Made by a program: the position numbers and the translations under genes. 20,358 nucleotides of DNA from a virus, in IMG/VR virus record IMGVR_UViG_3300037296_000248, positions 1 to 20,358 of that record, one strand, 5' to 3'. Numbering within the stretch: position 1 is the stretch's first letter; each line of letters starts with the position of its first letter. Positions 3,239-5,459 of this stretch are shown here, one piece after another. Under the pieces are notes generated by a model. The model did no database searches. It was not told the DNA's origin and saw only the letters and a list, made by a program, of their open reading frames with translations.

Positions 3239-3388
3239 ATGCAAATTAAACAGATGTTTTTCAAGTCAATTCGTAAGGTGTCAGCATTTTTAATGCTTTG
3301 GGCCCCATGTTCTTTGGTGTTTAAAGCGCATTTTTGGGCATGTAAAAAGTTGGATCGTCAGCAAGTGACTAAGGCGGTGGTGTTATGA
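3239..3388 (+). CDS. 49-aa peptide upstream of the replication genes
   Basis: ATG at 3239 with TAAGGA about 8 bases upstream opens a 49-residue frame. A hydrophobic stretch (VSAFLMLWAPCSLVFKAHFW) is flanked by basic residues at both ends, suggesting a small membrane-associated peptide. Its TGA overlaps the ATG of the next gene (ATGA at 3385-3388), so it may also serve to couple translation. No family is recognised. A 10-base repeat, GTATGCAAAT, occurs at its start and 34 bases upstream. Confidence 0.45.
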   Translation: MQIKQMFFKSIRKVSAFLMLWAPCSLVFKAHFWACKKLDRQQVTKAVVL

Positions 3389-3660
3389 GTATGCAGCTTC
3401 TTCAAGTGGTTATGAATACTCAGTTTGATAGCCCTAAATACAAGCTGATGCTTGCGCAAATGGCACATACAGCGGATGAAAACGACACTTGTCACACTGC
3501 TATTGGTGACATAGCCAAACAGTGTTGCTTAAACCTTGGCAAAACCTTTCAGTGCATCCAAGAGCTTGAGCAAGGTGGCTATCTGAAAATTGAGAAAAAT
3601 ATTAGGGACGTTTGTTTTAAATTGAATCCTGCCCGTATATCAGAGAAAGGGGCTCATTAG
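3385..3660 (+). CDS. Small winged-helix DNA-binding protein
   Basis: The 91-aa product reads as a single winged helix-turn-helix: first helix FDSPKYKLMLAQMAHTADE, recognition region HTAIGDIAKQCCLNLGKTFQ, then a helix and wing (CIQELEQGGYLKIEKN). The same fold type opens the next gene (aligned phrases such as LLSMADRAGEDHTCWPSIAR), so the two look like relatives, one of them reduced to the DNA-binding part. It overlaps the 49-aa frame by four bases, and its stop is two bases before the next ATG. It likely acts in replication initiation or its control. Confidence 0.7.
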   Translation: MSMQLLQVVMNTQFDSPKYKLMLAQMAHTADENDTCHTAIGDIAKQCCLNLGKTFQCIQELEQGGYLKIEKNIRDVCFKLNPARISEKGAH

Positions 3661-3662
3661 TA

Positions 3663-4460
3663 ATGAGTGTAGATGCAACGCGTTGGGCTTGGTTAGCAAG
3701 CCCAACCAAATCGTCCGAATTGCTTGTGCTGCTTTCAATGGCAGATAGAGCGGGAGAAGACCACACTTGTTGGCCTTCCATAGCTCGCATGGTCAAAGAC
3801 ACAAAGCTGAATGAAAAAACAGTTAATACGGCGCTTAAAGGACTTGTTGAGCAAGGTTTGATTTGCGATACCGGTCGTAGAGTAGGGAGTACTGGGCGCG
3901 TAAAAGTGTATCAGTTAGTAGGTGTTTTAGGTCGTGACGAGCAATTAGAAAAAACAACAAGGCCTAAAAAGAAGGGAAAAAAGAATACATCCGAAATAGG
4001 GGGGATTAAATCTAATACCCCCAAAAACGGAATACTTCCAATTTTACCGTCTAATACCCCCGAAATTGGGGGGACTAAATACCCCCAAAATAGGGGGTCA
4101 GAACCTATCACTTTAGAACCTAACAAAGAACCTAACACTTCTTTGAGTTCGCCTCCGGCAAACGCCCCAACAAAAACCAAACAGTCTTGTGTGTTTCCAA
4201 AAGACTTTGCGGTTGATCAAACCATGGTGAATTGGCTGAACGAAAAGGGGATTACCGCACCTTGGCAACTCGAAACGGAAAAGTTTGCTAATCACCACAT
4301 TGCTAAAGGCTCAGTTTTCAAGGATTGGCGAGCGGCATGGCGAACGTGGATGTTGAACTCAATTAAATATCAGGTTCCAGCCCAACAGCAGGCGGCAATC
4401 AAAACTGGACGAGAGGCTGTGCAAGATGCTCTTGGCGATATTCACAACACGGATTGGTGA
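3663..4460 (+). CDS. O-like phage replication initiation protein
   Basis: This 265-aa protein has three parts. Residues 1-85 form a winged helix (WPSIARMVKDTKLNEKTVNT, then GLVEQGLI and a GRVKVYQL wing). Residues about 95-165 form a low-complexity, Asn/Pro/Gly/Lys-rich linker with repeated N-T-P-x-x-G-G type units. Residues about 175-245 form a conserved C-terminal domain (FPKDFAVD, then HIAKGSVFKDWRAAWRTWML). This is the architecture of lambda O-type or DnaT-like initiators that bind the origin and recruit helicase. The linker DNA contains the iteron-like repeats listed separately. No helicase or helicase loader gene follows, so host DnaB/DnaC-type functions are probably used. Confidence 0.8.
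   Translation: MSVDATRWAWLASPTKSSELLVLLSMADRAGEDHTCWPSIARMVKDTKLNEKTVNTALKGLVEQGLICDTGRRVGSTGRVKVYQLVGVLGRDEQLEKTTRPKKKGKKNTSEIGGIKSNTPKNGILPILPSNTPEIGGTKYPQNRGSEPITLEPNKEPNTSLSSPPANAPTKTKQSCVFPKDFAVDQTMVNWLNEKGITAPWQLETEKFANHHIAKGSVFKDWRAAWRTWMLNSIKYQVPAQQQAAIKTGREAVQDALGDIHNTDW
3989..4100. repeat. Iteron-like G/C-tract repeats, probable phage origin
   Basis: Within the linker of the replication gene, six C5/G5-6 boxes with A/T-rich flanks are clustered. AATACCCCC[AG]AAA occurs three times in direct orientation (about 4013, 4052 and 4079), with inverted copies at about 3993-4005, 4062-4076 and 4090-4098. Two pairs make palindromes: CCCCCGAAATTGGGGG (4056-4071) and ACCCCCAAAATAGGGGGT (4081-4098). 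A purine/A-rich stretch lies just upstream (3948-3988). Lambda and many other phages keep their origin iterons inside the initiator gene, which supports reading this as the origin; this is inference. Confidence 0.6.
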
Positions 4461-4469
4461 GGAGGAAAT

Positions 4470-5459
4470 ATGGGACAGTCAGTTATTGCATCAGATAAAA
4501 ACGTATCGGATTTAGATATTAAGGTTTTCTTGGCTGAACAGCGAATTGTTGAATGGTACGAGCATTTCGATGGTCAGGTTTATATCTCATTTTCGGGCGG
4601 CAAAGACAGCACTGTTTTAGCTGAGTTAGTTTGGTCGATTTATCCAGAAGTACCTGCTGTGTTTTCTAATACTGGGCTTGAATATCCTGAGATTGTTCAG
4701 TTTGTTAAGTGGAAGCAGAAACAAGGATACCCAATCGTAATTGTTAGACCAAAAAAGACGTTTCGTGATGTGGTTATGAATGATGGCTTCCCGCTGATCA
4801 GTAAGAAGGTAGCTGAAATGGTATCTCGCTTTTATAACCCGTTGCCAAGCAATGAGGCGACACGAAGTCTTTATTTAACTGGAATTCGAAAAGATGGCGT
4901 TTTTAGTAAAGGGAGCAAACTTCCTGAACGTTGGAAAAAGTTAATAGATGCCCCTTTTAAAGTGACGGCCAGCTGCTGCGATTCTCTTAAAAAAGAGCCG
5001 TTCCGTCGATATATAAAAGAAACTGGGCGAATGCCTTATAGCGGGGTTATGTCGTCCGAGGGTGGTCGTCGAGGAATGATGAAAACCTGTAATTCATTTG
5101 ATGGGAAAGATCCTCAGTCTAAGCCTATGTTGCCTTGGAGCGAGGATGATGTGTGGCAGTACATTCGAGAAAACAATATTGAGTATTGCAGCGTCTACGA
5201 CGACAGAACGGTTAATGGCGTGTTTGTTGAAGGTGAAAAGCGAACAGGTTGTATGTTCTGTGCTTACGGTGCGCATCTAGAGAAAGGTGAAAATCGTTTT
5301 CAGCGCATGGCAATTACTCATCCAAAGCTTTGGAATTACTGCATTAACAAGTTGGGCATGGCGGAGGCGCTGGATTTTATCGGTGTTGATTATATGCCAT
5401 CAAGTCAAAAGCATGTAGAGAACAAACAATTGGAGTTGTTTGATCCTAAGAATTTATAG
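4470..5459 (+). CDS. Phage PAPS-reductase-family (PP-loop) protein
   Basis: The 329-residue protein has the PP-loop ATP-binding motif SGGKDS at 42-47 and a following FSNTGLEYPE strand typical of the phosphoadenosine phosphosulfate reductase/DndC superfamily. Cysteines at 169-170, C207, a CMFC pair at 261-264 and C291 could hold an iron-sulfur cluster or zinc; the CxxC is in RTGCMFCAYG. Such proteins activate sulfur or adenylate a substrate; phage versions are common but their substrate is unknown. No dnd partner genes are nearby, so DNA phosphorothioation is not supported. The start has AGGAGGAAAT upstream, nine bases after the replication gene. Longer than CysH (about 240 aa) because of a C-terminal extension. 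Confidence 0.85.
   Translation: MGQSVIASDKNVSDLDIKVFLAEQRIVEWYEHFDGQVYISFSGGKDSTVLAELVWSIYPEVPAVFSNTGLEYPEIVQFVKWKQKQGYPIVIVRPKKTFRDVVMNDGFPLISKKVAEMVSRFYNPLPSNEATRSLYLTGIRKDGVFSKGSKLPERWKKLIDAPFKVTASCCDSLKKEPFRRYIKETGRMPYSGVMSSEGGRRGMMKTCNSFDGKDPQSKPMLPWSEDDVWQYIRENNIEYCSVYDDRTVNGVFVEGEKRTGCMFCAYGAHLEKGENRFQRMAITHPKLWNYCINKLGMAEALDFIGVDYMPSSQKHVENKQLELFDPKNL

Follow-up and report, generated by a model that had tools for sequence, protein, structure and literature searches.

A marine phage appears to keep the start of its replication inside the gene of the protein that recognizes it. In the DNA analyzed here (an IMG/VR virus record of 20,358 bases, hereafter the window), bases 3987-4139 very probably form a replication origin of the lambda type, located within the gene of its own initiator. 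There the DNA would dictate the peptide, and the initiator would bind, open the duplex, and load the helicase as proposed below. Judging by its sequence, the window has a lambda-type origin architecture, i.e., about four dyad iterons in the initiator gene beside a segment of repeats. This layout, its recurrence in related phages, and the selection acting on the DNA can be read from the sequences themselves (Table 1). The idea of an origin embedded in the initiator gene, following the logic of lambda, was put forward in a preliminary description of this DNA, and the layout supports it.

The profile matches place the window gene among the HTH_36 / phrog_1032 phage replication initiators. Its N-terminus matches the Pfam family HTH_36 (E=1.3e-12, exceeding the gathering score), and residues 1-241, nearly the full length of the protein, match phrog_1032, annotated as 'replication initiation protein' (E=4.2e-41). 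All 52 members of alignment A2 also match HTH_36. In an AlphaFold2 model built on a 52-sequence alignment, the winged helix is modelled with confidence (block pLDDT of 90-97 over residues 1-90 and 58 for residues 91-100), its secondary structure reaches residue 97, and a linker spanning approximately residues 99-175 is predicted to be disordered. The C-terminal helical domain is presumed to be the part that recruits the helicase. It has no match in Pfam, and hence we do not claim that it is a DnaT domain. The fold search with the winged helix retrieved generic winged-helix regulators with weak scores, none at E ≤0.001; altogether, the sequence and fold searches of the PDB gave just such weak regulators and one irrelevant chain.

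Table 1. Coordinates of the initiator gene, its domains, and the elements of the putative origin in the window.
Feature	Position	Strand	Details
O-like replication initiator gene	3663..4460	+	265 aa; HTH_36, phrog_1032, AlphaFold2 model
Winged-helix DNA-binding domain	3663..3956	+	aa 1-98; K52 in presumed recognition helix
Iteron 1	3987..4004	+	core 3991-4000, codon phase 1, left arm degenerate
Iteron 2	4017..4034	+	core 4021-4030, codon phase 1, right arm degenerate
Iteron 3	4056..4073	+	full dyad CCCCC-N6-GGGGG, core 4060-4069, codon phase 1
Iteron 4	4081..4098	+	full dyad, core 4085-4094, codon phase 2
Three tandem repeats GAACCTATCACTTTA / GAACCTAACAAA / GAACCTAACACT	4101..4139	+	proposed unwinding and single-strand loading element
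C-terminal helical domain	4218..4367	+	aa 186-235; block pLDDT 64-75, lower confidence

The preliminary description had noted six C/G tracts in the linker of the initiator. All six are present (G6 at 3999-4004, C5 at 4018-4022, C5 at 4057-4061, G6 at 4068-4073, C5 at 4082-4086, and G5 at 4093-4097), they do fall in the linker that the model predicts to be disordered, and the string AATACCCCC[AG]AAA occurs at 4014, 4053, and 4078. The C5/G5 tracts are clustered, with 8 of the 14 match positions lying within 99 bp. Since the window as a whole shows no excess of them (14 matches for 12.2 expected, a number reached by 31 of 100 shuffles), we dropped them as the signal. The dyad core CCRAAADHGG occurs six times in the window for 0.91 expected, a count reached by none of 100 shuffles, and four of these matches are inside 104 bp. 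The tracts, described as six boxes with two palindromes, resolve best into four dyad-symmetric iterons with the core CC-RAAAWY-GG, all in the initiator linker: two are full (iterons 3 and 4) and two have a degenerate arm (iterons 1 and 2). Six independent boxes were discarded as the unit because the relatives carry the whole dyad. Iterons 3 and 4 are spaced by 25 bp and have arms extended to five C/G. As iteron 4 lies in another codon phase than iteron 3, it encodes PQNRG where iteron 3 encodes TPEIGG. The NTPxxGG peptide repeats pointed out earlier represent only one of several reading frames of the DNA unit.

Relatives of the initiator were collected by protein scans of IMG/VR and of GTDB genomes, and from phage and plasmid records. 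The query of the main IMG/VR and GTDB scans was restricted to the N-terminal 96 residues, and therefore the linker did not select these relatives; one IMG/VR scan (7 loci) used linker peptides, and the searches of records used the whole protein. The IMG/VR relatives from the main scan are the best 80 of 447. We extracted 163 genes (the window and L002-L164 without L006; L001 is the window itself and was left out), dropped six of them (L027, L064, L075, L105, and L144, with fewer than 180 aa, and L135, which is not closed), and removed those sharing more than 75% of their 5-mers with a kept gene, which left 92 non-redundant genes. The genome scan located members of the family in Acinetobacter, Vibrio, Pseudoalteromonas, Marinomonas, Enterobacterales, and others, and the nearest genome relatives of the window initiator are from Marinomonas.

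When dyads were sought without supervision in the 92 linkers, CC-N6-GG types (GTACC/GGTAC, GTCCC/GGGAC, and CCCCC/GGGGG) ranked among the top ones, well above synonymous recoding. The strict core was found at 261 sites in 67 of the 92 genes, i.e., 261 sites in 81,468 ORF bases against 16 in 384,728 flanking bases. The A-run is on the coding strand in 252 of these sites and inverted in 9. For the 85 genes whose linker has at least two broad cores, the distance between the last two is 24 bp in 43, 25 bp in 5, and 61 bp in 16; spacings of 17, 24, or 18 bp prevail between other neighbouring cores. The strict core is missing in 25 genes, 16 of which carry at least one linker variant of the type CCAAYRDYGG, and some genes without it bear other dyads (e.g., GTCTCAC..TGAGAC in L007). 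In three genes (L019, L022, and L082), neither iterons nor repeats are clear. A lysine at the position of K52 goes along with these sites: 81 of the 82 genes having it carry at least two broad CC-N6-GG sites in the linker, compared with 4 of the 10 lacking it (p=2e-6), using a permissive pattern (about one chance match per linker, with 57 sites expected in 60 genes) and without correction for relatedness. We take this association as a lead only.

Downstream of the iterons, the window has three tandem repeats (GAACCTA...) starting at 4101, 4116, and 4128, the first one 6 nt past the core of iteron 4. They were absent from the preliminary description, which had instead pointed to an adjoining A-rich stretch. 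Such a stretch exists at around 3949-3985, upstream of the iterons, but L005, the nearest divergent relative, does not conserve its sequence, and for that reason we dropped it as a part of the origin; the conserved neighbour is the downstream segment at 4101-4139. In the relatives, two to four GAAYCW units follow the last iteron, spaced by 11-15 nt, mostly by 12 or 13 nt (66 and 43 of 116 spacings). Chains of GAAYCW are found in 64 of the 92 genes, against 11.9 ± 2.8 after synonymous recoding (maximum 20), and are absent from the other 28; there are 116 GAAYCW pairs in ORFs and 3 in the flanks. The last core and the first unit are 6 nt apart in 49 of the 59 genes with a chain and a preceding core. 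In five further ones of the 59, the offset comes out as 30 because their last dyad escapes the search pattern; a script placed a CC-N6-GG at the 6-nt offset in four of them, and inspection by eye did so in L121. The chain is still kept by four of the seven genes that have at most one broad CC-N6-GG site.

When each ORF was scanned for its least stable 40-mer, this stretch started within -5 to +100 bp of the last iteron's end in 46 of 75 genes, for 9.5 expected. Not so in the window, where it lies upstream, at 3978, and 4100-4150 is just a local minimum. On average, the repeat zone is mildly AT-rich (0.59-0.63 versus mostly 0.54-0.57 upstream, where one bin also reaches 0.63).

The two-part layout can also be searched for in DNA alone. 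In a scan of IMG/VR for two cores 24 bp apart followed by GAAYC at +6, at least 120 stretches matched and, among the matches listed, 118 of the 118 readable loci were inside ORFs encoding the winged helix of the initiator family. The pattern was derived from the same family, and this figure measures its precision, not discovery. The first 80 loci comprised 33 non-redundant ones, of which 23 were outside the 92 genes. Further contigs (L199, L228, L233, and L251) have CCCCC-N6-GGGGG dyads spaced by 24 bp; CAGAACC follows the dyads in L228 and L233, and not in L199 within the stretch printed.

Several known phages have HTH_36 / phrog_1032 initiators like that of the window: phiV10, Acinetobacter AB1/AP22, Vibrio H20, and Edwardsiella GF-2. 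The linkers of phiV10, H20, and GF-2 have four core-bearing repeats, and those of Acinetobacter AB1/AP22 fewer. In 15 phage records, the initiator proteins are annotated and the linker repeats are not. HTH_36 proteins are also reported in the Stx-phage types Eru5/6/8/11/13 in PMC8951638, in which the word 'iteron' is absent; we group them with the window family by name. A passage of PMC7924643 describes a putative origin with four iterons, likened to that of lambda, in the replication ORF (ORF43) of Francisella phage KIRK. This resembles the window, the likeness being one of description in a single-phage report.

The origin of lambda offers the closest comparison of layout. It has four dyad iterons with C/G arms and a central A-run, inside the linker of the initiator gene as in the window, and immediately after them an A-rich asymmetric segment where the window has the GAAYCW repeats. 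Iteron 3 reads CCCTCAAATTGGGGG in lambda and CCCCCGAAATTGGGGG in the window; after iteron 4, lambda continues with ACACAAAAGACAC... and the window with TCAGAACCTATCAC. The iteron unit of the window differs from that of lambda, as the preliminary description had it, yet the two are clearly comparable and not as far apart as it implied. The core common to the window family is CC-N6-GG, and its downstream unit is a GAAYCW per 12/13 nt, versus ACAAAAG-type repeats in lambda. In lambda and Stx phages, O is described as binding each iteron and contacting G-tracks, and the AT-rich tract is called crucial for unwinding (PMC7466680). The origin of P22 is annotated (rep_origin) within the initiator gene 18, the arrangement that we propose for the window. 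Its dyads are of the type ACC..GGT, followed by repeats that read ACAAAAGACAATAT or ACAAAAGACA; the repeat sequences differ from those of the window.

Lambda O and the gene 18 product of P22 (gp18), which is related to it, match Phage_rep_O (PF04492), whereas the winged helix of the window family is HTH_36 and the window initiator has no match to Phage_rep_O at E up to 1. With lambda O as the query, blastp at E 1e-3 matched 3 of the 92 genes, only the chimeric GF-2 strongly, and did not match the window. Lambda O and the window initiator both match the 'O-like' PHROG families 391, 678, and 345 (E of 1e-19, 5.1e-12, and 4.9e-8 for the window), with lambda O matching phrog_391 C-terminally only. 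These common profiles suggest a kinship that is distant at most.

Repeats of 13 or 8 nt lie beside the sites bound by the initiator in RK2 oriV, F oriS, and oriC, as in the window, with other repeat sequences. These three origins are non-coding. For RK2, TrfA is reported to bind one strand of the unwinding element and to need all four 13-mers (PMC4081077). Among the matches listed in the open-access PMC literature, no description of the family-wide two-part layout was found, and the iteron strings retrieved other subjects only.

The genes between 1568 and 7957 follow the order S24-type repressor, YdaS-like, initiator, PAPS-reductase-like, NinB, YbcO nuclease, and possible RusA-like; this early region is that of a lambdoid-style temperate phage. 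Unlike in the lambda O protein family, the initiator of the window is not directly followed by a P gene, nor by DnaC or DnaB. The next gene (4470-5459) is PAPS-reductase/PP-loop ATPase-like, with a possible role in nucleotide or DNA modification, whereas several relatives have P or DnaB at this position. Directly upstream of the initiator, at 3385-3660, an ORF of 91 aa encodes a wHTH-only protein that matches initiator families (phrog_4617, E=3.7e-13). Among the loci compared, this copy was found only in the closest relatives of the window. It could be a brake that competes for the iterons.

The dyads might instead be operators through which the winged helix, or the wHTH-only protein, autoregulates transcription or the level of the initiator, the origin being elsewhere. 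That the winged helix has regulators as its fold matches, and that the window's clade carries another wHTH-only ORF immediately upstream, would fit such a role. However, the sites are approximately 330-435 bp into the coding region, a regulator would have no need of repeats at a fixed offset, the layout resembles the annotated origins of lambda and P22, and the upstream paralogue is restricted, among the loci compared, to the closest relatives. We regard operators with the origin elsewhere as very unlikely; a dual use of the dyads, as operator and as origin, is possible.

The repeats might also matter for the peptide, either as a functional NTPxxGG motif or as a low-complexity linker, with the likeness in DNA being secondary. 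The linker is indeed disordered in the model, and there is a bias in frame, with 185, 45, and 31 of the 261 strict cores in the three codon phases. However, synonymous recoding of the same proteins gave only 44.2 ± 5.7 strict cores (maximum 57 in 200 recodings), and the unit occurs in all three frames, at least two of them being used in 40 of the 60 multi-site genes, including the window. Furthermore, the codons are frozen relative to the rest of the gene. Between the window and L005 (winged helix 91% identical), the codons of identical residues changed in 2 of 46 cases over residues 109-162, compared with 46 of 77 in the winged helix (Fisher p 1.5e-10) and 26 of 64 in the C-terminus (p 1.2e-5). 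The corresponding changes relative to L029 are 3/45, 42/77, and 26/60. The closest relatives are less informative (0/52, 19/83, and 5/89 for L003; 0/53, 13/82, and 9/88 for L004). The recoding and frame tests lead us to reject the explanation at the level of the peptide, which is very improbable.

These excesses persist when relatedness is controlled by keeping one gene per cluster of wHTH identity. Below 80% identity, 60 genes have 187 cores (32.0 expected) and 39 chains (7.3 expected); below 60%, 33 genes have 98 cores (18.2 expected) and 18 chains (3.4 expected); and below 50%, 16 genes have 38 cores (5.1 expected) and 7 chains (1.9 expected, maximum 5). The exact geometry of core, 6 nt, and GAAYCW is kept in 37, 15, and 5 genes, respectively, and in the last set at least two frames are used in 7 of 9 multi-site genes for 0.3 genes expected. 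Selection on the DNA rather than on the peptide is supported by the switching of reading frames and by the conservation of synonymous sites.

Finally, that the dyads act in the mRNA as hairpins for translation pausing, attenuation, or decay is hardly credible. The arms do vary symmetrically between phages (as they would in hairpins and dimer sites alike), and 252 of the 261 sites put the A-rich strand on the message (a bias that would also follow from avoiding hydrophobic residues in the linker). However, the stems are short, at about 4-5 bp around a loop of 6 nt, 9 of the sites are inverted, and the common spacing of 24-25 bp and the 6-nt offset fit phasing on duplex DNA.

Returning to the origin within the initiator gene, we infer binding, dimerisation, opening, helicase loading, and origin activity from the sequences. 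Dimers of the winged helix would bind the four dyad iterons, the last two of which are 25 bp apart, and form a lambda-like O-some. This would strain the GAAYCW repeats that begin 6 nt past the last core, and the repeats would open. Either the variable C-terminal domain or a partner protein would then hold one of the opened strands and pass it to the helicase. The peptide of the linker would be largely dictated by the DNA, which would be tolerated because the linker is disordered.

The variability of the C-terminal part is substantial: at E 1e-3 in blastp, the winged helices of the 92 genes form a single cluster, and 91 C-termini (one being too short) form 14. The initiator of Edwardsiella phage GF-2 (L011, 1501-2343) is a chimera, with an HTH_36 N-terminus, the repeats of the family, and the sequence of lambda O from the linker on (46.6% over lambda O 93-299 in blastp), followed by a P gene. 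This suggests that the cassette can serve helicase loading of the lambda type. A broader reading, to which we give somewhat less than even credence, is that the winged helix, the iterons, and the downstream 12-mers make up a single portable origin cassette, which evolves as a whole and is joined to unrelated helicase-recruiting domains at a point just beyond the 12-mers. In this reading, the GAAYCW units would be a sequence-specific element, fixed at 6 nt from the last iteron and probably recognized as one strand of the opened duplex, either by the initiator itself or by a factor of the host. In some genes, the 12-mers persist when the iterons have diverged completely, and they would therefore be the more conserved signal of the origin if this reading is true. 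They would then be comparable to the repeats of the RK2 or oriC unwinding elements, in this case within coding DNA.

A circular plasmid record of Escherichia coli (L024, 1-8461; 8,461 bp) is a prophage segment that is also found in linear form in other chromosomes. It has genes for a repressor, Cro, YdaT, the initiator, and P, of which only the family initiator, with four strict cores, and P are recognizable replication genes. A 10-bp string is common to the regions near both ends of the source segment. The circle resembles a natural lambda-dv, but may be an assembly artefact.

The lambda origin in gene O is a classic. For HTH_36 initiators, we found no description of an origin among the matches listed in the literature searched, KIRK aside if it belongs to the family. 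The two-part signature would make the origins of HTH_36 phages, a little-studied group, predictable from sequence and open to testing, and more than 100 related phage sequences share the layout. The association of K52 with CC-N6-GG is a testable pairing of helix and iteron, and the repeats at a fixed offset make the opening of DNA by HTH_36 initiators testable as well. The family would thus be a clean case in which one segment of DNA is both an origin and the linker of a protein, the peptide being set by the DNA in more than one reading frame.
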